Source of the DNA: Balneolaceae bacterium
Lineage (GTDB): Bacteria > Bacteroidota > Rhodothermia > Balneolales > Balneolaceae
Assembly (NCBI GenBank): GCA_007132385.1
Contig: SLOU01000118.1
Coordinates: 1 to 51,446, forward strand
Reading direction: 5' to 3'
Length of the DNA: 51,446 nucleotides
How positions within the stretch are numbered: the first letter of the stretch is position 1; the number at the start of each line of letters is the position of its first letter. Under the pieces are notes generated by a model, which saw only the letters and a list, made by a program, of their open reading frames with translations, had not been told where the DNA came from and did not search any database. Made by a program: the position numbers and the translations under genes. Positions 13,565-25,638 of the stretch are shown here, in pieces.

Positions 13565-14404
13565 TTATACAGCTAAATTGGGAAAGTGAAGGCTCAATTC
13601 TTTGATAAACACACCGAGCTTGGGACGCGTCGGTTCAAAATCGACATGAATGCCCTGACTCTCAAGTCCTTTCGTACAAACTGGCCCGACGGACGCTACA
13701 AAGGTTTTATTGAGTGCTTCCCGAAACTTTTCGACAACGTTGTCAGCGGCAGCCATCTCCATAACATGATGGATCTGGGTTTTACTGGTAAAAACCGAAA
13801 TTTCCACTTCTCCGTCCAGCACGGCTCGGAGCCCTTTTTTCAGCGGTTCAGTATCATCCGGCAGAGCCCAGCGGTAAACCGGGACCTGTACGACTTCTGC
13901 CCCTCGTTCCCTGAGTGAATCCATCAGTGGTTCGTTGGTTTCCCCGTACTCCTGGACGGCCACAGTCTTACCGGCAAGATCCCGGGTTTTCGGGTGATTG
14001 TTCATCGCTTCAAGCAGTTCTTCCCAAGTATTGGGTTCCGGGGCATTGACATGATAGCTGACCCCCAGTTCTTTCAATACCGTCACCGGCTTGGGACCGC
14101 GTACAACAATCGTAAGCCCGGTCAACGCCATAAGAATCTTGTCCATTTCATGACGTGTCCGGAGTGTATCGATCATCATTCTGGTACCCACGCCTGTCAT
14201 GCAAACAAGTACATCCACGTCCCCGCCAAATAAAAGATCTCCAAATTCAAAAACCTCCCCGTGCTCTTCCAGCGGGACTTCCTGCATGGAAGGAGCGCTG
14301 ATTACATCGGTTCCGTATTTCTCAAGCATCAAAGCAGCAGAATCAGATAACCGGCTTTCAAAACAGATCGCTTTTGTTCCGGAAAGTGGTTTTTCGGTCT
14401 TCAT
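13565..14404 (-). CDS. Uroporphyrinogen-III synthase (HemD)-like protein of the nitrate cluster
   Basis: I move the start to ATG 14404 (279 residues): AAGGAG lies 11 bases upstream, and the ORF-track extension overlaps the previous gene. The protein has the two-lobed HemD plan: lobe one around KAICFESRLSDSAALMLEKYG with GGDVDVLVCMTGVGTRMM, lobe two with LAGKTVAVQEYGETNEPLMD, VPVYRWALPDD and ISVFTSKTQIHHVMEMA. HemD closes hydroxymethylbilane to uroporphyrinogen III, the precursor of siroheme. Being the last gene of a cluster that encodes siroheme-dependent nitrite reductase, it may boost siroheme supply. HemD-like domains are also found in regulators, so a sensory role cannot be excluded. No methyltransferase or ferrochelatase for siroheme is in the window. 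Confidence 0.8.
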   Translation of the reverse strand: MKTEKPLSGTKAICFESRLSDSAALMLEKYGTDVISAPSMQEVPLEEHGEVFEFGDLLFGGDVDVLVCMTGVGTRMMIDTLRTRHEMDKILMALTGLTIVVRGPKPVTVLKELGVSYHVNAPEPNTWEELLEAMNNHPKTRDLAGKTVAVQEYGETNEPLMDSLRERGAEVVQVPVYRWALPDDTEPLKKGLRAVLDGEVEISVFTSKTQIHHVMEMAAADNVVEKFREALNKTFVASVGPVCTKGLESQGIHVDFEPTRPKLGVFIKELSLHFPNLAV

Positions 14405-14423: not shown

Positions 14424-15893
14424 TTAATATTCCTCGACAGGAATAAATGACGTTTTGGGTGTTGTACATACTGAACATACGTAATTTCCGGGCAGATTCT
14501 CAAAAAGAGTTCCCTCTTTTATGCCAGCTTGGGGATCTCCGTACTCACTGTCATAGATCGTCATGCAGTTTCTGCACTGGTAGCTCGAATAGACAGGCTT
14601 CTCTTCGTTTTCTACGGCTGTCCGGTGGCTACCGGGTTCAAAGCCGGATTCCAGTTCGTTGAAGTAGGTTTTGCTAAGATCGATCAACAGTGTCGGGAGA
14701 TCGGTTTTCATCACTTTTTCGTCAAAGGTGAGGTATTCCGAGCTGTTCGGATTGAAATTTCGAGCATAAAGAATATTATATAACAGTTCTCCTTCGGGAC
14801 CTTTTTCCCCGAAATCCCTTTCGATGACAACCGATGTGAAAAGGAGCATATCGGGATCGGTTTTCACCGTAAACGTCAGCCCGTGCGTGCTGATGTCCTT
14901 TTGGTCGAGTTCACGTACCAGGTACGTCTTCAGTTCCAGGGCTTCCTCATCCATCACCGGCAAGTGCCAGTTCAGCTCCAGGGACGAGTGGCGCAGGTTG
15001 ATGCCGTACCGGCCCATAAGTTTTTCCCACAAAATGCGATCATCCGAACGGATTCCCTTGATGATGAATGATTTCCAGGGAGTGATGCTGATTTTCCCCA
15101 CCCGGGTCTGCTGGCATAATCGACAGGCTTCACTTAAAAATTCGATACCAAACCGATTATTCCGCCAGTAGAGCCCAAGCCATAGATCGTTGTTCTGCAT
15201 CGTATTCAACCCTTCATAATAGGGAAATAGGGAGGTCGGTTTTGAGGGTTTTTCATCTGATGCAACCGAATGGAGTTTCACTTCAGAGTCCACTTTTTTA
15301 TACAGCTCTCTGTGACTCAGCCCGGGTGATTCCTGCAGGACCTGCTCGATGTGTTTCGCAGCGGCCGCAATATCATTTTCGTGGATCAGGTCGGGCCAGG
15401 GGATCAGGGTGCTACTGTTTTCACTGGAATTCCGGCGTATATACAGATGCCAGTAGTGCTCCTGCCTGGAAGCAACAAAGTTGAAATGGCCCGTAAACAG
15501 GGGGACAAGGCTTTGAATCGGATCGATAATATTCACTTTGAACACAGGCTGATAGTCAAACCGGTCGAGGATGTAGTGGTAGACATCTTCCTTTAACCAC
15601 CAGGTACTGTCGGTTACATTAACCGATACGTAAGAACTCACTATATTTTCCTGTTTGAACGGCTTTTTCAGCCGGCCGGATTCGGTAATGTGATACGCCA
15701 GGCCGGTCTGATCCAGGAGAACGCCTGCTTTTGCGCTTTTTACCGGTTCCACCGGAAAGAGAATATCCTGCCGGGAACCGAACATAATATAGCCGTTGCC
15801 AGCTTCCCGCGACGCTTTCATCACCTGCAGCAGTTCTGCCGGAGAGATCAACCCTCCTTTTACAAATACCCGTATAATCGGAATGTCTTTCAT
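14424..15893 (-). CDS. NiR/SiR-like two-half-domain protein fused to rubredoxin, siroheme-binding cysteines absent
   Basis: The 489-residue protein ends in a complete rubredoxin (about 435-489) with YQCRNC and YVCSVC as the four iron ligands. The rest has the pseudo-twofold plan of nitrite/sulfite reductases. The first ferredoxin-like half lies at 5-50 (KGGLISPAELLQVMKASREA, YIMFGSRQDILFPV). The second is at about 235-290 (WRNNRFGIEFLSEACRLCQQ, VGKISITPWKSFIIKGI). Outside the rubredoxin the only cysteines are the single CRLC pair, so the four-Cys [4Fe-4S]-siroheme site cannot form. It is probably not a reductase but an electron-transfer or docking partner. It lies directly behind the nitrate reductase fusion with AAAGGA ahead of the ATG, which suggests it serves nitrate or nitrite reduction. 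Confidence 0.8.
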   Translation of the reverse strand: MKDIPIIRVFVKGGLISPAELLQVMKASREAGNGYIMFGSRQDILFPVEPVKSAKAGVLLDQTGLAYHITESGRLKKPFKQENIVSSYVSVNVTDSTWWLKEDVYHYILDRFDYQPVFKVNIIDPIQSLVPLFTGHFNFVASRQEHYWHLYIRRNSSENSSTLIPWPDLIHENDIAAAAKHIEQVLQESPGLSHRELYKKVDSEVKLHSVASDEKPSKPTSLFPYYEGLNTMQNNDLWLGLYWRNNRFGIEFLSEACRLCQQTRVGKISITPWKSFIIKGIRSDDRILWEKLMGRYGINLRHSSLELNWHLPVMDEEALELKTYLVRELDQKDISTHGLTFTVKTDPDMLLFTSVVIERDFGEKGPEGELLYNILYARNFNPNSSEYLTFDEKVMKTDLPTLLIDLSKTYFNELESGFEPGSHRTAVENEEKPVYSSYQCRNCMTIYDSEYGDPQAGIKEGTLFENLPGNYVCSVCTTPKTSFIPVEEY

Positions 15894-16054: not shown

Positions 16055-19000
16055 CTATACCGCCGGAACCAGTTTTTCATCCAGGATCTGTCTGACTTCC
16101 GGCTTGCAACTCCCGCACCCGAGGCCTGCGCCTGATTTTTTGCACAGTTCCCTGAAATCGTCGCATCCGGTTTCGATTAACTTTTCGATATTCCCCCTGC
16201 CTACGTGATTACAGGAGCAGACCGTTTTACCCAACACCGGCTCACGGGCCTGTCCCGACCGTAACAGTGTCTTCCTCATATTGGAGAGTTCCATTTTTGA
16301 CTCGATCAAGTCTTTGAATTCGGCAAATTCGTTTTTATCCCCCATCAGGATCGCTCCAACCAGCCGGTCGTCTTTGATGATGCACTTTTTGTAATACCGT
16401 TCCGATTTGTCGATAAACAGGATCTCTTCATACCCTTCTTCCCCGCTGGGTACTACGGGCATGCCGATCGAACAGAGATCCAGATCGGAGAACTTCAGGA
16501 TATTCATACTGACTGAACCCTCATACATCGCCAGGGAATCACCCGTAAGGTTTCTGGCAATGATATCAGCCTGTTGTTCGGCCGCTGCCGTAATCCCGTT
16601 CAGTTTGCCCCGGTGTTCGGCGATCTCACCCATTGCGAAGATCGAAGGATCGGATGTTTGCAGGCTATCGTCTACAAGCACACCCCGGCCGCACTCCACC
16701 TTTGCTTCCTTCAGAATTTCTACATTCGGCCGTGTTCCGATCGCGTATACCACCGCATCGCAATTGAGTTTTTTTCCACTCTTGAGGATTGCACCGATTC
16801 CCTTATCCCGCTCATAGCCGGGGTGTCCTTCGGTTTGGAGCTGCTTTACCTGGTCGTTGATATGAACGCTGATTCCCTTCTCCCCGACAAACTCCATGAG
16901 CAGCTCGGCCGACAAGGCGTCGAGCTGACGTTCCATCAGGCGGGATGCAAGCTGGACGATCGTGATATCCAGATCAATTTCGTTGAGCGCTGCGGCCAAC
17001 TCCAGTCCCAGCAGGCCTCCTCCGATAATCAGCACGTGGGCGTCCCTGCCGAGGTGCGATTTAAGCGCATCGGCATCGGCGCGGGTTCGCATGGTAAAAA
17101 CACCCGGCTCACCGATCGGTTCCCCGGGTGGAACAAAAGCCCGGCTTCCGGTTCCCACAATCAGCTTGTCGTAGGTGTGAACCTCTCCCGTGTCGTCGAC
17201 AACGATTTTATTCTTCCGGTCGATCTGTTTAATCGCTGTCGAAGCATGAAGCCGGATATTCAGTTTTTCTATCTCATTTTCCTTGAATTTGAGCAGGGAT
17301 TCCCAGCTTAAATGTTCATTGACATATTCTGGCAGCAACACACGGTTATAAAAGGGATGCGGTTCTTTTGAAAAGACATGGAGTTCATCTTCCCGGTTCT
17401 GTTCCCGGTAGCTGTTCACAAACCGGTAGGCCGACGCGCCGGCACCGACTACAACAATTTTTTCCCGTTTCTTGAACACTTTTTCGACCTGTACGGCACT
17501 ATACTTGAAATCGGGTTCTTTCGAGATTGGGTCGACCAGGTTCAGGGTCAGGTTATTGGCCCGGGCCACCGGTTTACCATTCACTTTACTCCAGTGCATC
17601 GGCAGAAAAACAAGCCCCCTGCGCACTCTGTCGGTGATGCGTGCGTGGACTTTTACCTCGCCCCGATTGTTCAGGATACGGACGGTTTGACCCTCTTCGA
17701 TCCCTCTTCGGGCCGCATCCTCCGGATGGATCTCCAGGAACGGTTTGGAAATATGCTGTTTGAGCCGGTTGACCTTCCCTGTCTTGGTCATCGTATGCCA
17801 CTGGTCGCGGATCCGACCGGTCGTAAGTACCAACGGAAATTCATCTGAGGTCTTCTCCGAGGTGTTTTCCGGCATATCGAGTGGAAAAAGTCTTGCCCTG
17901 CCGTTCTCCGTATAAAACCGGTGATTGGTAAACAGGCGCCGTGTTCCGTTGCTGTGGATGTTATTCAACGGCCACTGAACCGTATTTTTCTCCTGCAGAA
18001 TCTCATAACGCAACCCGGAAATATTGATATTTGTTCCGGCGGTCATCCGGCTGTACTCTTCAAAAATCTCTCCGGTATTTTTGAAATCAAAGCCACGGTA
18101 TCCCATCGCTTTGGCAAAACGGATCAGGATTTCGGCATCCGGCAAGGCTTCCCCCGGTGGTTCAATCACTTTTTCCAGGTGGCTGATCCGCCGTTCGGAA
18201 TTGGTCATTGTCCCCTCTTTTTCCATATGTCCGGCAGCCGGCAGCACCATATCCGCAAACTGCACTGTATCCGACTTTTCAGAGATATCCTGGACAACGA
18301 CGAATTTTGCTTTTTCCAGGGCCTGTTCTGCCTTGTTGACATCCGGGAGGCTGACCATCGGATTTGTGGCGATAATCCAGACCGCTTTCAGTTTACCTTC
18401 ATCCAGTGCATCAAACATTTCGGTTGCCGTATACCCCGGTTGTTCCCGGATTTCGGGTACTCCCCAGAAATCAGCGACTTCCTGCCGATGCTGCGGATTA
18501 GCCAGGTCGCGGTGAGCGGCCAGCAGCGATGCCATTCCGCCGACTTCCCGCCCGCCCATGGCGTTCGGCTGACCCGTAAGCGAGAAGGGGCCGGAGCCCG
18601 GTTTGCCGATCTGTCCCGTGATCAGGTTGAGACTGATCAGCGAAAAATTCTTTTTCACCCCGATCACACTTTGATTCAGACCCATCGCCCACATGGTGAT
18701 AAACCCGTCGGCATCCCCGATCCAGGCAGCGGCCTGGCGAATCTGGCCGGCTTCCAACCCGCAAATAGCAGCCGCCTCATCGACATTCAGGCTGAAAACG
18801 GATTCCCTGTAATCCTCAAATCCGTCGACATGGTTTTGGATAAATTCCGCGTCCGCATCTCCGTTTTCAATCAGGATCCTTGCCATCGCATTGCACAGAT
18901 AGATATCGGTGCCCGGATTGAGTGGAAGGTGCAAGTCTGCCTGAGCGCAGGTCTCGGTTTTACGAGGGTCAGCAACAATAATTTTGACATCCGGGTTTTC

Positions 19001-19585
19001 CTCCTTGTGCTTCTCAATTCGCCTGAAGAGGATCGGATGGCACCAGGCCGGATTGGCGCCGGAAATAAAAAAACAATCCGCCTTTTCGATGTCATCATAA
19101 CAGATCGGAACAGCATCCTCACCCAGCATTTTTGTATAAGCTGCCACAGCCGAGCTCATACATAACCGGCTGTTGGTATCGATATTATTGGTTCCGATAT
19201 ACCCTTTGACCAACTTGTTGGCCAGATAATACTCTTCGGTCAGGCACTGGCCGGAGACGTAAAATCCGACACTGTCGGGCCCGTGCTTTTCAATGATCGA
19301 TGCGAAAACTGCCGCAGTTCTCTTCATGGCGGTATCCCAGTCAACCCGCTGAATGGGATGCGCTTTGCTCCACCTCATTTCCGGATATAACAACCGGTCG
19401 CTCTGGTCCTGTACCGTATAATTCAGGTTCATTCCCTTTGAGCAAAGCATCCCTTTATTCACCGGGTGGTCCGGGTCTCCCTCTACACGGATATTTCCTT
19501 TATGGTCTTTTTTGACGAGTATACCACAGCCAACCCCGCAATAGGAGCAGGTCGTCTTGTGGCACCCGGCTTGATTCGCAGACAT
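16055..19585 (-). CDS. nasA: Assimilatory nitrate reductase fused to FAD/NAD(P)H reductase and BFD [2Fe-2S] domain
   Basis: The 1176-residue protein carries a whole assimilatory nitrate reductase. Residues 1-740 are the molybdopterin enzyme: [4Fe-4S] ligands C13, C16, C20 and C48, the molybdenum-ligand region NSRLCMSSAVAAY near 140, and a C-terminal cofactor-binding lobe with FPLVLTTGRIRDQWHTMT. Residues about 745-1100 are an FAD- and NAD(P)H-binding module like NasC/NirB (VVVGAGASAYRFV, LIIGGGLLGLELA, AMGEIAEHRG). Residues 1115-1176 are a BFD-type [2Fe-2S] domain with CSC and GCGSC ligands. It should reduce nitrate to nitrite in the cytoplasm with NAD(P)H as donor. It follows the transporter gene after 181 bases and precedes the rubredoxin fusion. 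No NapB-type cytochrome or Tat signal is present, in keeping with an assimilatory role. Confidence 0.95.
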   Translation of the reverse strand: MSANQAGCHKTTCSYCGVGCGILVKKDHKGNIRVEGDPDHPVNKGMLCSKGMNLNYTVQDQSDRLLYPEMRWSKAHPIQRVDWDTAMKRTAAVFASIIEKHGPDSVGFYVSGQCLTEEYYLANKLVKGYIGTNNIDTNSRLCMSSAVAAYTKMLGEDAVPICYDDIEKADCFFISGANPAWCHPILFRRIEKHKEENPDVKIIVADPRKTETCAQADLHLPLNPGTDIYLCNAMARILIENGDADAEFIQNHVDGFEDYRESVFSLNVDEAAAICGLEAGQIRQAAAWIGDADGFITMWAMGLNQSVIGVKKNFSLISLNLITGQIGKPGSGPFSLTGQPNAMGGREVGGMASLLAAHRDLANPQHRQEVADFWGVPEIREQPGYTATEMFDALDEGKLKAVWIIATNPMVSLPDVNKAEQALEKAKFVVVQDISEKSDTVQFADMVLPAAGHMEKEGTMTNSERRISHLEKVIEPPGEALPDAEILIRFAKAMGYRGFDFKNTGEIFEEYSRMTAGTNINISGLRYEILQEKNTVQWPLNNIHSNGTRRLFTNHRFYTENGRARLFPLDMPENTSEKTSDEFPLVLTTGRIRDQWHTMTKTGKVNRLKQHISKPFLEIHPEDAARRGIEEGQTVRILNNRGEVKVHARITDRVRRGLVFLPMHWSKVNGKPVARANNLTLNLVDPISKEPDFKYSAVQVEKVFKKREKIVVVGAGASAYRFVNSYREQNREDELHVFSKEPHPFYNRVLLPEYVNEHLSWESLLKFKENEIEKLNIRLHASTAIKQIDRKNKIVVDDTGEVHTYDKLIVGTGSRAFVPPGEPIGEPGVFTMRTRADADALKSHLGRDAHVLIIGGGLLGLELAAALNEIDLDITIVQLASRLMERQLDALSAELLMEFVGEKGISVHINDQVKQLQTEGHPGYERDKGIGAILKSGKKLNCDAVVYAIGTRPNVEILKEAKVECGRGVLVDDSLQTSDPSIFAMGEIAEHRGKLNGITAAAEQQADIIARNLTGDSLAMYEGSVSMNILKFSDLDLCSIGMPVVPSGEEGYEEILFIDKSERYYKKCIIKDDRLVGAILMGDKNEFAEFKDLIESKMELSNMRKTLLRSGQAREPVLGKTVCSCNHVGRGNIEKLIETGCDDFRELCKKSGAGLGCGSCKPEVRQILDEKLVPAV

Positions 19586-19611: not shown

Positions 19612-19772
19612 TATGTTTTACGGCTTACTGTACTCTATAAAGCCCATCATCAGGATAAGGACAGGCCTGGTTATGGTTTGCAAATTTTTTTTGGTTTCGA
19701 ATTGATTATCCCATTTGTCGGATTTCAATGATCGGCTGAGCTGGTTGCAATATGTCCCGGTATGTTTTACGG
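19612..19772. repeat. 12-base direct repeat flanking the transporter-nasA gap
   Basis: TATGTTTTACGG occurs at 19612-19623, 26 bases upstream of the nasA start, and again at 19761-19772 over the last codons of the transporter gene. The two copies bracket the intergenic gap. They could be binding sites for an internal nasA promoter or a chance pair. Confidence 0.3.
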
Positions 19773-21176
19773 ATTGACCGGCTCCGGATCGGGTTGTGGT
19801 TTCTCCTTGAGTGCAGCTGCTTTCCTCTGTTCTTCCTCCACAAATGCCTGTTGCGAGTCAATCGACTCGTTCAATTCCACCCGGGCTACAACCTCTTCAC
19901 GTGCCGAAAACCGGACGAAAAAGGCGGAAAACGAACAAACCGCAACGATACAACCAAGGATAAAGAGGGCGTCCGCATAGGGAATCGACTCATAACGAAA
20001 CAGGAACCCGGCTGCGACAGCTCCGGCGTTACCGCCTGCCCCTACTATCCCCGATACGGCTCCAATCGCTTTCTTGTTGACGAATGGCACGACCGAATAG
20101 GTGGCTCCTTCCGACATCTGCACCAGCAGGCTGAACAAAATCATAACGGCAATGGCGAGCGGCAAAACGGTCATACGTGAGAACAGCATCAGCACCAGAC
20201 CGGAAAACAGGAGCACAACGAACAGAAACATCACCCGTCCTTTCAGGCCGAACCGGACACCGAACATATCGCCGAAATAGCCACCCATGGAACGGGCAAA
20301 AATATTCATCAGCCCGAAAAGTCCAGCGATCAATCCGGCTGCTCTCAAACTCAGATCAAAGTTATCCCGGTAATAGATCGCAGCGATATTATTGATGGTC
20401 AGTTCGATCCCGAAACAGGCACCGTAAATGAGAAACAGGGCCCAGACCCGATAGTCCCTGACAGCCTCCATGAATGCGCTCTCTTTCCAGGACTGTTTTT
20501 TTTCGGCTTCCCGCTGGTTTTTTTTCAGCTCAGAGAAATTTCCCTCGGGAACGTCTGTCGTAAATTTCAGGTAGACGATACCCATGATCATCATCGCAAC
20601 ACCCGGAACCACCATTGCCCAGCGCCAGGCTTGTCCGTCGGATAGTCCGAGAAACAAAAATCCTGAAAAAATCAGCGGCATCACCATCTGTGTCACTCCC
20701 CCTCCCAGGTTGCCCCAACCCGCGGTGGTCGCATTTGCGGTTCCCACCACATTGTGGGCAAACATGACCGATGTATGGTACTGTGTGATCACAAAGGACG
20801 CACCGATCACCCCGATCAGCAGACGGCAGATCAGGAAACTTTCATAGCTGTTGCTTAGTCCGATTGAGATTACGGGGAGGCTGCCTAAAATCAGCAGCCC
20901 ACTGTAGGTGATCCTGGGGCCGATTCTGTCGCACATCCATCCGATCAGCAGCCGTGCAAAAATAGTGATGAACACCGAAGCGATGATGATGTTCCCCACT
21001 TGGGTTTGTGAAAGGCCGAGTTCATCCCGGACAACGACCATCAATGGTGCGATTCCGAACCAACCGAAAAAACAGAGAAAAAACGCCATCCACGATAGGT
21101 GGAAAGTACGCATATGCGGCGCTTCGAAACTGAAAAGTTTTATTTGGGTGGCTTTACCATTCCCTGAAGCATTCAT
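19767..21176 (-). CDS. MFS nitrate/nitrite transporter (NNP family)
   Basis: The 469-residue protein has 12 hydrophobic segments and the two nitrate signatures of the nitrate/nitrite porter family: TAGWGNLGGGVTQMVMP near residue 150 and SGIVGAGGNAGAVAAG near 375. It should bring nitrate in, and possibly move nitrite, across the inner membrane to feed the assimilatory reductases. Its start codon overlaps the nirD stop by 4 bases (ATGA), so the two are translationally coupled. The first 20 residues are a polar extension; the C-terminal tail of about 40 residues is Glu/Ala-rich and cytoplasmic. A fused double NarK is excluded by length. Confidence 0.93.
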   Translation of the reverse strand: MNASGNGKATQIKLFSFEAPHMRTFHLSWMAFFLCFFGWFGIAPLMVVVRDELGLSQTQVGNIIIASVFITIFARLLIGWMCDRIGPRITYSGLLILGSLPVISIGLSNSYESFLICRLLIGVIGASFVITQYHTSVMFAHNVVGTANATTAGWGNLGGGVTQMVMPLIFSGFLFLGLSDGQAWRWAMVVPGVAMMIMGIVYLKFTTDVPEGNFSELKKNQREAEKKQSWKESAFMEAVRDYRVWALFLIYGACFGIELTINNIAAIYYRDNFDLSLRAAGLIAGLFGLMNIFARSMGGYFGDMFGVRFGLKGRVMFLFVVLLFSGLVLMLFSRMTVLPLAIAVMILFSLLVQMSEGATYSVVPFVNKKAIGAVSGIVGAGGNAGAVAAGFLFRYESIPYADALFILGCIVAVCSFSAFFVRFSAREEVVARVELNESIDSQQAFVEEEQRKAAALKEKPQPDPEPVNP

Positions 21177-21538
21177 GCCGGCAGCCCCACATAGACGTGC
21201 TGGTTCTCAACTTTAACCGGAAACGTGGTTAACTTGTAATCTTCGCCATCCAGGTTTTCTCCCGTTTCCAGAGAGAAGGTTTTCTTGTGAAACGGGCAGG
21301 CAACTTTCGGGATACCATTTTTATCCCCGATCATACCTCTTGAGAGGATCATCTGCATTTTATGAGGACACAGATTCTGGCAGGCGTACCATTGATCACG
21401 GGACGTAAAATTAAATACGGCAATTTGAAGATTGTCCAGTTTTATACAGACGCCCCCGTTTCTGGGAAAATCCTCGACATGGGCAACTTTGTACCATTCG
21501 GCTTTATACCACTGTTTAATTTCTTCTACGGAATTCAT
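21173..21538 (-). CDS. nirD: Nitrite reductase [NAD(P)H] small subunit, Rieske-type
   Basis: The 121-residue protein is the NirD partner of NirB. It keeps all four Rieske ligands, in CPHKM (Cys, His) and CPFHKKTFSL (Cys, His), so it should bind a [2Fe-2S] cluster, whereas some NirD proteins have lost these residues. The C-terminal beta strands TTFPVKVENQHVYVGLP are typical. It acts in the cytoplasm with NirB in six-electron reduction of nitrite to ammonium. It lies 157 bases after nirB, a gap holding a 14-base palindrome, and overlaps the transporter gene by 4 bases. Confidence 0.95.
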   Translation of the reverse strand: MNSVEEIKQWYKAEWYKVAHVEDFPRNGGVCIKLDNLQIAVFNFTSRDQWYACQNLCPHKMQMILSRGMIGDKNGIPKVACPFHKKTFSLETGENLDGEDYKLTTFPVKVENQHVYVGLPA

Positions 21539-21695: not shown

Positions 21696-24218
21696 TCAGC
21701 TTCCCCATCCGTCGGGCACCTTTTGACCTCGATAGTCCCTGAATTTCAGGCTGGGATCGGGTTCGTCGGAGTTGACGAAATGGCGGAATTTTTTCTGAAG
21801 GTCTGTGTTGTCGACCACTTCTTTCCACTCGCACCGGTACGCGTCGACCAGTTTTTGCATCTCTTCTTCCAGACCAGCGCCGATCCCGAGAGAATCGTCA
21901 ACGATAACCGTTTTGAGGTAATCCAGTCCGCCGTCCATTTTGTTGATCCATGTGGATGTCCGGTTCAGGGGTTCAGCCGTTTTAATGTAGAACATCAGGT
22001 AGCGGTCAAGGTAACGGATGCAGGTTTCCTCGTCGATGTCGGAAGCAAGCAACATGGCATGCTGGGGTTTGGAACCCCCATTGCCGCCGACGTACAGGTT
22101 CCATCCCTTTTCTGTGGCGATGATTCCGAAGTCTTTTCCCCTGGCTTCGGCACATTCACGGATACAGCCCGAAACACCTCCCTTCAGCTTGTGAGGAGCT
22201 CTCAACCCCCGGTATCTTTTCTCCAACCGGAGAGCAAAGGAGACTGAATCGTGCAGCCCATACCGGCACCAGGTTGAACCCACACAGCTTTTCACGGTCC
22301 GCAGCGCCTTTCCGTAGGCGTGCCCGCTTTCAAAACCGGCTTCAACCAGCTCCTGCCAGATGTCGGGAAGCTGATCGACCCGGGCGCCCAACATATCGAT
22401 GCGTTGTCCACCTGTGATTTTGGTATAGAGCCCGTATTTTTTAGCAATTTCCCCGATGACAATCAATTTATCGGGTGTGATTTCCCCGCCCGGCACTCTC
22501 GGGATTACCGAATAGGTTCCACCCCGCTGGATATTGGCCAGGAAACGGTCGTTGGTATCCTGGATGGTATCCTGTTTGATTACCAGGTCGTTCCAGGCGC
22601 TCGCCAAAATCGAAGCAACGGCCGGCTTGCAAACTTCACAGCCGTCTCCCTTGCCATACTCATCCAAAAGATCATCAAAGGTGGTAATATTCTGCACCTT
22701 GATGATTGAGTAGAGCTCCTGGCGGGTATATTCAAAGTGCTCGCAAAGGGTTTTCTTCACGGACTTCCCCAGTCGTTCCAGGGTATGGTTCAGCAGATCT
22801 TTAACCAGCGGCGTGCATCCTCCGCAGCCAGTGCAGGCTTTTGTCTCATTCCGGATTTCACCGAGCTCCGTGAGCTCATTGTCCTCGATCAGCCCGACGA
22901 TATCCCCTTTGGAGACATTCTCACAGGAACAGATCTGAGCTTCATCAGGAAGATTTTCAACACCGTCACCTTCCGCAGCGTCTCCCCTTGCGCCCAGAAC
23001 AAGAACTTCTGGATTTTCCGGGCAGTCAATGTCATTTAAAAAACGTTGATGCAACGAATTATAGGACTCGGCATCCCCTACCAACATTCCACCCAGCAGT
23101 TTTTTACCATCATCAGAGACTACAATTTTTTTGTAAATCCCTTTCAATTTGTCTTCGTAAACAATCGGGATACCATGATCCTTCGTAAAGGGATTTCCGA
23201 AACTTGCCACGTCCACGCCGATCAGTTTGAGTTTGGTCGACATATCAAACCCGGTAAACGTCTTATCCCTTTCTCTGACAATTTGAGAAGCGGCAACTTC
23301 GGCCATCTCATACCCAGGGGCAACCAGTCCGTATATCATATTTTGATGCAGGGCTGACTCGCCGATTGCATAAATATTTTCGTCACTGGTTTTCAGGCAA
23401 TCGTCTACAATTATACCGCCACGTTCACCTGTTTTCAACCCGCACGCTTTAGCCAGTTCATCTCTTGGGCGGATTCCTGCTGAGATCACCAGCATATCGA
23501 CGTCCAGGTCCGTCTTGTCGGAGAACCTCAGCGATTTCACCGACCCGTTTCCGGTAATTTCCTCAGTCTGCCTGCCCGTGTACACCTCAAGCCCGAGCTT
23601 TTCAAGTTTGTGCTGAAGGATTGCCGCCCCGTTTTTATCCAGTTGGCGAGGCATCAACCGGGGTATGAATTCTATAACTGAAGCCTTCAGGCCCATGTCC
23701 ATCAACGCTTTAGCCGCCTCCAGGCCCAACAATCCTCCTCCTAGAACGGCTGCCCGCTTGCATTTTCTTCCATATTGCTCGATCGCCTGAAGGTCTTCAA
23801 TGGTGCGATATACGAAGACACCTTCTTTTTCGGTGCCTTTGATAGGGGGGACAAACGCCCTCGAACCGGTTGCCAGGATCAGCTTGTCATACAGATCCCG
23901 GTTGCCCTTGTGCGTGAGAATACACCGATTTTCCCGGTCAATATGAGTAACCAGTTGAGACATGTGGAGGGTAATCTCATTTTCTTCATACCAAGAGCGG
24001 GGAGCCATCATCAAGTCCTCGCTCCCCTTCCCATTAAAATATTCACTCAAATGAACCCTGTCGTACGCCGGACGGGGCTCTTCACCATACACAGTGATCT
24101 CCAGTCGGTCCGGACCCGCTTTTGCCCGCAATTTTTCACAAAATTTGTATCCGACCATCCCATTGCCGACAACGATCACCTTTTTCGTTTTTCCCGATTC
24201 TGACTTCTTGCAAGTCAT
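21696..24218 (-). CDS. nirB: Nitrite reductase [NAD(P)H] large subunit
   Basis: The 840-residue protein is a full NirB. Residues 12-330 are the FAD/NAD(P)H reductase part (VIVVGNGMVGYKF, AAVLGGGLLGLEAAKALM). Two BFD-like [2Fe-2S] segments follow, the first with CSCEN and CTGCGGC near 430-465 and the second around GDGCEVCKPA near 525. The C-terminal half is the siroheme reductase: CVGSTWCRYG and GVSGCIRECAEARGKDFG provide the four cysteines of the [4Fe-4S]-siroheme centre. It reduces nitrite to ammonium with NirD, using NAD(P)H. It is the first gene of the nas run, preceded by a 268-base region rich in palindromes that is the likely control region. Confidence 0.97.
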   Translation of the reverse strand: MTCKKSESGKTKKVIVVGNGMVGYKFCEKLRAKAGPDRLEITVYGEEPRPAYDRVHLSEYFNGKGSEDLMMAPRSWYEENEITLHMSQLVTHIDRENRCILTHKGNRDLYDKLILATGSRAFVPPIKGTEKEGVFVYRTIEDLQAIEQYGRKCKRAAVLGGGLLGLEAAKALMDMGLKASVIEFIPRLMPRQLDKNGAAILQHKLEKLGLEVYTGRQTEEITGNGSVKSLRFSDKTDLDVDMLVISAGIRPRDELAKACGLKTGERGGIIVDDCLKTSDENIYAIGESALHQNMIYGLVAPGYEMAEVAASQIVRERDKTFTGFDMSTKLKLIGVDVASFGNPFTKDHGIPIVYEDKLKGIYKKIVVSDDGKKLLGGMLVGDAESYNSLHQRFLNDIDCPENPEVLVLGARGDAAEGDGVENLPDEAQICSCENVSKGDIVGLIEDNELTELGEIRNETKACTGCGGCTPLVKDLLNHTLERLGKSVKKTLCEHFEYTRQELYSIIKVQNITTFDDLLDEYGKGDGCEVCKPAVASILASAWNDLVIKQDTIQDTNDRFLANIQRGGTYSVIPRVPGGEITPDKLIVIGEIAKKYGLYTKITGGQRIDMLGARVDQLPDIWQELVEAGFESGHAYGKALRTVKSCVGSTWCRYGLHDSVSFALRLEKRYRGLRAPHKLKGGVSGCIRECAEARGKDFGIIATEKGWNLYVGGNGGSKPQHAMLLASDIDEETCIRYLDRYLMFYIKTAEPLNRTSTWINKMDGGLDYLKTVIVDDSLGIGAGLEEEMQKLVDAYRCEWKEVVDNTDLQKKFRHFVNSDEPDPSLKFRDYRGQKVPDGWGS

Positions 24219-24486: not shown

Positions 24487-25638
24487 TCAGGACGGCCTAA
24501 ACTTGATGTCAACTTTCGGAGTTTGATCCTGCTCGCGGTTGCGTACGATCAGGGCCTGTTCCACGCGATTGGAGATCCGGATAAACGACTCTGCGGCTTC
24601 CGATGCCGGTTCCGATACAACGATAGGAACACCCCGGTCGCTTGATTTCATTATGGGTTCACGCAGGGGAATTTCCCCAAGGAACGGTACGTCCAGCCTG
24701 GACGCCAGGTTGCGGGCTCCGTGTTTGCCAAAGATGTAGTATTTCTTCTCGGGCATATCTTCTGGCACGAAATAAGACATATTTTCGATGACACCCAGCA
24801 CCGGAACGTTCACTTTCTTGAACATTGCCACACCTTTTCTCACATCGTCGAGTGCCACAATCTGCGGTGTCGATACAATAACAGCCCCGGTCAGAGGAAC
24901 CGTCTGAACGATCGTGAGTTGAATATCCCCTGTACCCGGCGGAAGGTCGAGAACCATATAGTCGAGTTCTCCCCACTGCACTTCCTGCATAAACTGCTTC
25001 ACAGCACTGGTCACCATTGGGCCTCTCCAGATCATCGCCTGATCGGTATCCACCAGGAATCCCATCGATACAAGATGAACGCCGTGTTTCTCGATCGGTA
25101 CAAGTTTTTTATCGGTCGTAATGTTCGGGCGTTCGGAAACCCCGAACAGAGTCGGGATACTCGGCCCGTAGATATCGGTGTCGAGCAGGGCTGTTTTTGC
25201 GCCCGACCGGGCCAGGGCAACCGCCAGGTTTGCAGCGACGGTGGATTTACCCACACCTCCTTTCCCGGAAGCCACGGCTATGATATTCTTTACACCAGGC
25301 AGTATCGGTTCCTGTTTCGGCTGTTGTTTCTGCCCGGATATGCTTTGTTCAGCCTGGGTTTCGGACTCTTCCATTTTTCGTTTCCTGGAAAGATTCACCC
25401 CGGTGGTAATATCTACCACAGCATCCTTATCGACAAACTTGTGTATGGTGTCCGTACATTTTTGTTTGAGATCATGAGCCAATTTATCATCCTTCCCGGG
25501 AAATTCGATCGTGAATGAAATGTATTTGTCCTGTACAATGATATCCTGAATCATGCCGAGGGTTACCAGATCGGTATTTTCCTGCGGATGAAGAACGTGT
25601 GCCAAAGCGGTCCTTACCTGCTCTTTATTGATAGACAT
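24487..25638 (-). CDS. Mrp/NBP35-family P-loop ATPase, iron-sulfur carrier
   Basis: The 383-residue protein opens with a MIP18/DUF59 domain (about 5-85, VRTALAHVLHPQENTDLVTL), followed by a charged Gln-rich linker and the Mrp/ApbC ATPase with the deviant Walker A GKGGVGKSTVAANLA near residue 125 and LDTDIYGPSIPTLFG. The CxxC often found near the C-terminus of cluster carriers is not seen. The family carries or inserts iron-sulfur clusters in the cytoplasm. Lying just upstream of a run encoding several Fe-S enzymes, it may help mature them, but the 268-base gap with separate control elements means it could be independently expressed. Confidence 0.93.
   Translation of the reverse strand: MSINKEQVRTALAHVLHPQENTDLVTLGMIQDIIVQDKYISFTIEFPGKDDKLAHDLKQKCTDTIHKFVDKDAVVDITTGVNLSRKRKMEESETQAEQSISGQKQQPKQEPILPGVKNIIAVASGKGGVGKSTVAANLAVALARSGAKTALLDTDIYGPSIPTLFGVSERPNITTDKKLVPIEKHGVHLVSMGFLVDTDQAMIWRGPMVTSAVKQFMQEVQWGELDYMVLDLPPGTGDIQLTIVQTVPLTGAVIVSTPQIVALDDVRKGVAMFKKVNVPVLGVIENMSYFVPEDMPEKKYYIFGKHGARNLASRLDVPFLGEIPLREPIMKSSDRGVPIVVSEPASEAAESFIRISNRVEQALIVRNREQDQTPKVDIKFRPS

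Follow-up and report, generated by a model that had tools for sequence, protein, structure and literature searches.

A rubredoxin-tailed, siroheme-less relative of sulfite/nitrite reductases as a probable dedicated partner of nitrate assimilation in Bacteroidota

INTRODUCTION

What can a siroheme reductase do in a nitrate assimilation cluster once it has lost its cofactor site and acquired a rubredoxin tail? The question is raised by a gene in the window, i.e. the whole 51,446-nucleotide stretch of a Balneolaceae bacterium contig analyzed here, which lies next to an assimilatory nitrate reductase fusion (hereafter NasA fusion) and encodes a core resembling sulfite/nitrite reductases (SiR/NiR) followed by a rubredoxin. 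A precedent for a dedicated redox protein in this pathway is the Rieske carrier NasG of Paracoccus, for which electron transfer to both NasC and NasB, starting at the NADH site of NasB and perhaps within a complex, was proposed, along with a role in balancing nitrite with nitrate reduction (PMC4724949, PMC6618116). No prior description of the rubredoxin-tailed family was found in the open-access literature searched. Here, its descent, cofactor site, gene context and distribution are analyzed, and the readings of its function that they allow are weighed.

RESULTS

Domain layout of the rubredoxin-tailed protein

The open reading frame reported by the initial annotation was recovered on the minus strand with a 489-aa product (Table 1). 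Pfam searches matched NIR_SIR_ferr in two stretches (E 3e-10, best at residues 7-48) and Rubredoxin (PF00301) at residues 438-483 (E 5e-14), each scoring above its curated cut-off, in line with the annotated pairing of two nitrite/sulfite-reductase half domains with a C-terminal rubredoxin. The second half domain holds the WLGLYWRNN, CxxC and TPWK motifs. All cysteines of the protein are accounted for by C257 and C260 (CRLC) and by C440, C443, C473 and C476 of the rubredoxin, that is, there is indeed a single CxxC outside the latter. Since it carries no strongly hydrophobic segment, the protein is probably cytoplasmic.

Table 1. Features of the rubredoxin-tailed protein gene and its neighbours in the window
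Feature	Coordinates	Strand	Basis or remark
SiR/NiR-like core plus rubredoxin protein, 489 aa, ATG start	14424..15893	-	
Siroheme-less two-lobed SiR/NiR-like core, residues 1-422	14628..15893	-	Profile-profile alignment, ~400 collinear columns
First NIR_SIR_ferr half domain, residues 7-48, invariant G39, R41, Q42	15750..15875	-	Pfam and alignments
Second ferredoxin-like half domain, residues ~236-298	15000..15188	-	Second Pfam stretch; boundaries from alignments
Invariant CxxC (C257-R-L-C260)	15114..15125	-	28/28 homologues
Rubredoxin domain, residues 438-483, CxxC-x29-CxxC	14445..14582	-	Pfam
Assimilatory nitrate reductase (Mo/4Fe-4S) fused to FAD/Rubredoxin_C/BFD [2Fe-2S] module	16055..19585	-	Conserved upstream neighbour
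NarK-family nitrate/nitrite transporter	19767..21176	-	Just below curated cut-off
NirD, Rieske-type small subunit	21173..21538	-	
NirB, NADH nitrite reductase large subunit with siroheme domain	21696..24218	-	
Uroporphyrinogen-III synthase HemD (siroheme/haem branch)	13565..14404	-	

The core descends from two-lobed sulfite/nitrite reductases

Homologues were gathered from 396 Bacteroidota genomes and Cyclobacterium contigs, yielding a core alignment of 28 sequences, all of which matched NIR_SIR_ferr. Aligned with a comparison profile of E. coli CysI and 12 relatives (sulfite/nitrite reductases), the 28-homologue profile was collinear over ~400 columns in local mode (score 89.1, P 97%, E 8e-11) and reached E ~1e-15 to 1e-16 in global mode, versus a best score of 24.8 among 21 decoys (20 column-shuffled profiles and one reversed profile) and 17.7 with the NasA fusion profile. 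This end-to-end alignment indicates that the whole core, beyond its two half domains, is derived from a two-lobed SiR/NiR protein, and it upholds the earlier idea of a degenerate SiR/NiR scaffold at the level of sequence profiles. It is on such profiles that the fold of the core rests, because an AlphaFold2 model built from four sequences (the window protein and three Cyclobacterium proteins) had a pLDDT of 46 and a pTM of 0.27, too poor for a fold search, which is probably due to the shallow alignment.

The NCBIfam models of CobG, CysI and NirA matched some family members weakly, and the best of them on the window protein lay far below its cut-off; for precorrin-3B synthase CobG (TIGR02435), 18-19 bits were obtained against an equivalog cut-off of 234.8 bits. 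An origin from the NirA of a sister operon type (described below) was not supported either, because the family profile lay closer to CysI, with a local score of 67 (E 6e-8) as against 39 (E 4e-4) for those NirA proteins, the profile of which was thin.

The cofactor site is lost while a core CxxC is invariant

SiR residues are numbered as in E. coli CysI (locus L095), and their roles as cluster ligands and siroheme or active-site contacts we take to be those established for E. coli SiR. The [4Fe-4S]-siroheme ligands C434, C440, C479 and C483 align with L311, a gap, D346 and a gap, respectively, and are missing family-wide; the cysteine count in residues 295-350 never exceeded two in any homologue. 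With C257, C260 and the four rubredoxin residues as the sole cysteines, a four-Cys cluster site is impossible, and the alignment thus predicts, as the initial annotation did, that no SiR-like [4Fe-4S]-siroheme centre can form. Among the other contacts, the equivalent of Arg153 is replaced in all homologues (retained in 0/28), those of Gln121 and His123 are replaced in the family alignment, that of Lys215 is variable across the 28 homologues, and the loop around Lys303-Lys306 is deleted. The equivalents of Arg117 (R41, 28/28) and Asn154 (N83, invariant) are kept, as mostly are those of Lys217 (K119, K/R in 27/28) and Arg83 (R8, R/K in 27/28), and G39-x-R41-Q42 is invariant in the first half domain.

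C257 and C260 are present in 28/28 homologues and H302 in 27/28. The core CxxC had been noticed before and regarded as a remnant; its presence is borne out, but it is a hallmark of the family, which that reading leaves unexplained. If it has a role, a second redox or metal site is possible.

These residues bear on whether the pocket was remodelled to bind another ligand, such as nitrite, NO or a cluster-less tetrapyrrole, with the CxxC as a thiol/disulfide or metal site, which would make the protein a redox sensor or a new enzyme. Such a pocket would account for the most conserved residues (G39-x-R41-Q42, N83, K119 and R8) falling in segments that line the siroheme site of SiR, and for the pairing of C257/C260 with a nearly invariant histidine. 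However, the conservation may have a structural cause, there is no predicted ligand, and the replacement of Arg153, Gln121 and His123, the variability of Lys215, the deleted loop and the loss of the cluster cysteines all weigh against it, so that we consider a remodelled pocket improbable.

The gene adjoins a nitrate reductase fusion

In the window, the rubredoxin gene starts 161 bp downstream of the NasA fusion gene, and the ATG of hemD lies 19 bp past its stop. The arrangement directly behind the nitrate reductase fusion, pointed out initially for this locus, recurs in 30/30 loci holding both genes (three of them in one genus), always downstream and on the same strand. In L061 an extra gene stands between the two, and in five loci they share an ATGA start-stop overlap, which suggests co-translation with nasA. 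The FAD plus Rubredoxin_C domain of the fusion is related to NADH:rubredoxin reductases such as NorW, and by its architecture the fusion would be a self-sufficient NADH nitrate reductase; the window fusion passed none of the NCBIfam nitrate reductase cut-offs. An ApbC/Mrp-type Fe-S carrier gene (24487-25638), which shares the minus strand with nirB, lies ~270 bp upstream of it and is possibly part of the same maturation context.

The neighbourhood could also be read as that of a protein that carries siroheme to NirB or helps to insert it, encoded together with the siroheme biosynthesis genes hemD and cobA. In agreement with this, hemD directly follows the family gene in the window, as cobA does in Hymenobacter, the family is confined to NirB genomes with the exception of G126, and the Arg117 and Asn154 equivalents of SiR are invariant. 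Yet few of the remaining siroheme contacts survive, siroheme genes turn up in nas clusters generally, and the gene adjoins the NasA fusion rather than NirB, which in several family-bearing genomes is 10-30 kb off or on another contig, making a carrier of this kind quite unlikely.

The family occurs in all sampled genomes that combine the NasA fusion with NirB

Of the 396 Bacteroidota genomes, 29 yielded the family, 33 the full NasA fusion and 28 NirB, with all three present in 28; a class-level sample added one genome with family, fusion and NirB and two with the fusion but without the family. Of the 36 sampled Bacteroidota genomes with the fusion, therefore, 29 carry the family and 7 do not. 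All 29 genomes with both fusion and NirB (28 of the phylum sample plus one) have retained the family gene without a loss, and all 7 fusion genomes without it also lack NirB: in the five inspected closely, NirA takes its place, accompanied where identified by a split CysJ-like flavodoxin plus flavoprotein, and in the remaining two a NIR_SIR protein of NirA size stands next to the fusion. Because the five family-less fusions placed in the tree form one supported clade, the link to NirB rather than NirA amounts to roughly one evolutionary event. Core distances track those of the NasA fusion (r = 0.94).

The initial annotation had expected relatives in other Bacteroidota nas clusters, and they do adjoin the nitrate reductase fusion in genomes with NirB: 28 of the 29 family genomes in the 396-genome set hold an adjoining fusion, and homologues located mostly away from nitrate or nitrite reductases were not what emerged. 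The exception is a rubredoxin-less homologue at a contig edge (L062, G126:C4:273-1553), in a genome where neither NasA fusion nor NirB was detected. Phyla beyond Bacteroidota were covered via plasmid and viral sequences and through a single pattern scan over genome contigs; on plasmids of all phyla, matches occurred in Bacteroidota only, the annotated ones being labelled ‘rubredoxin’, and no homologues were found on viral contigs.

The sister operon type (L063-L067) has the same NasA fusion, no rubredoxin gene, and NirA alongside a CysJ-like protein divided over a flavodoxin and a flavoprotein gene. In those loci that were read, NirA, flavodoxin and flavoprotein all start with a similar short FS/TPxQRxWLNGFLAG-like helix motif, which could be a docking tag. 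A structural cause for the partner-less fusions was sought and did not emerge: fusions with and without the partner alike keep the clusters, the Mo-ligand Cys and the [2Fe-2S] module, and the differences are confined to scattered non-ligand cysteines.

The loss of every cofactor cysteine, together with the rubredoxin-less L062 in a genome without fusion or NirB, might suggest a functionless pseudogene, the decaying remainder of an ancestral nitrite/sulfite reductase with a rubredoxin tail. The conservation pattern refutes this: 33 columns are invariant over 28 sequences with identity as low as 32%, the frames are intact, and the gene is retained in 29/29 genomes with fusion and NirB, which leaves decay with almost no probability.

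The only rubredoxin found in the fusion genomes

With its two CxxC knuckles ~29 residues apart and its pass of the Pfam cut-off, the C-terminal domain is, by these sequence marks, a true rubredoxin, as had been claimed initially, and the CxxC-x28/29-CxxC spacing is kept in 25 of the 27 homologues possessing it. The loop is collapsed in the other two, L058 of G392 (CxxC-x8-CxxC) and L061 of G190 (CxxC-x15-CxxC), and L062 has no such domain. The collapsed versions look more like a zinc-ribbon knuckle and are useful natural variants on whether the redox function of the rubredoxin is needed.

Across the 36 fusion genomes, PF00301 matched inside the family only, once per genome, in 27 of the 29 family-bearing genomes; the remaining two hold the collapsed versions and no other rubredoxin, and the 7 fusion genomes without the family gave no PF00301 match. 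No second rubredoxin was found in the genome of the window, the assembly of which is 71% complete, compared with >90% for the rest of the set. Hence, no general rubredoxin was detected for which the domain might substitute, and as the family rubredoxin is the only one found in its genome, its partner most likely lies inside the nitrate assimilation pathway.

DISCUSSION

The family, known in databases just as ‘rubredoxin’, probably serves nitrate assimilation as a dedicated partner, either relaying electrons or assisting assembly. Between these, both of which the initial annotation had suggested, we tentatively favour a docking and relay subunit, the rubredoxin of which would carry electrons between the flavin modules present in the NasA fusion and in NirB, although we would not put it at even odds. 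A two-lobed siroheme reductase would have turned into a pseudoenzyme and become a dedicated subunit of cytoplasmic nitrate assimilation; its siroheme-less core would probably provide a platform for docking on the NasA-FAD-BFD nitrate reductase and possibly bridge it to NirB too, and its tethered rubredoxin would probably be a one-electron relay exchanging electrons with the NADH-oxidizing FAD modules in the NasA fusion, in NirB or in both, holding nitrite reduction in step with nitrate reduction, as proposed for NasG. We infer complex formation, the direction of electron flow and the balancing role from three points that favour docking and relay, namely the rubredoxin-reductase-like module of the partner flavoprotein, a rubredoxin without another evident client, and the NasG precedent. 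The kept rubredoxin spacing, the constant order and strand relative to the fusion, the co-occurrence with NirB and the parallel distances of core and fusion also speak for this reading. A stronger form, in which the dead siroheme reductase would be an electron-distribution hub, its sole rubredoxin coupling the NasA fusion to NirB and the CxxC being a possible second redox or metal site, we hold to be somewhat less probable.

Several observations count against a relay. The NasA fusion and NirB each own an NADH/FAD/[2Fe-2S] path, and NirD is present as well; with an NADH/FAD module in each of the two enzymes, it is not obvious that a shuttle is needed. The two collapsed rubredoxin loops (x8 and x15) point in the same direction, as does the homologue without the domain, although its genome, G126, also has neither fusion nor NirB, and the correlation with NirB versus NirA weighs as about one event.

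The main rival, to which we give somewhat less credence than to docking and relay, is a maturation or assembly factor that would insert or protect metal cofactors during aerobic biosynthesis, either the Mo/4Fe-4S of the NasA fusion or the siroheme-4Fe-4S of NirB, its rubredoxin acting like HoxR/HupI. The rubredoxin HoxR matures the 4Fe-3S cluster of hydrogenase (PMC10583674), HupI/HoxR occur in aerobic species and a rubredoxin serves photosystem II accumulation (PMC3772215), and Paracoccus NasC requires the chaperone NarJ (PMC6618116). A NarJ/TorD-family protein was found in 0/29 family-bearing genomes versus 4/7 other fusion genomes, and the ATGA overlaps with nasA would suit an assembly partner. 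However, three fusion genomes without the family gene are without NarJ as well, and therefore some fusions manage without either; other molybdoenzymes may be the clients of the NarJ homologues found; and the core is not a known chaperone fold.

If the favoured docking and relay reading is true, the label ‘rubredoxin’ has concealed a missing component of Bacteroidota nitrate assimilation, a siroheme enzyme fold has been reused without its cofactor, and a rubredoxin has been devoted to one pathway, which offers a testable gene for nitrate/nitrite balance in organisms where no NarJ or free rubredoxin was found.

Compared with known systems, the family shares with CysI, NirA and CobG the collinear two-lobed build, the two NIR_SIR_ferr half domains and the Arg117 and Asn154 equivalents, but it is without the [4Fe-4S] cysteines, has several siroheme contacts replaced and the Lys303-Lys306 loop deleted, and adds the C-terminal rubredoxin and the invariant CxxC in the second half domain. 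Its tail carries the Fe(Cys)4 signature CxxC-x29-CxxC of Rubredoxin (PF00301) and passes the Pfam cut-off as a predicted member, whereas it is tethered to a large core and has no Gly after the first knuckle. Like the Rieske carriers NasG and NirD, it would be a dedicated redox protein encoded with nitrate and nitrite reductases, but a rubredoxin replaces the Rieske cluster (the 489-aa protein gave no Pfam match to a Rieske [2Fe-2S] domain) and NirD is present besides. HoxR and HupI are small proteins and, like the family, accessory rubredoxins encoded with a metalloenzyme; theirs are hydrogenase operons, whereas the family resides in a nitrate assimilation cluster wherever the context is readable, and it is by gene context, not by sequence, that the two are set apart.
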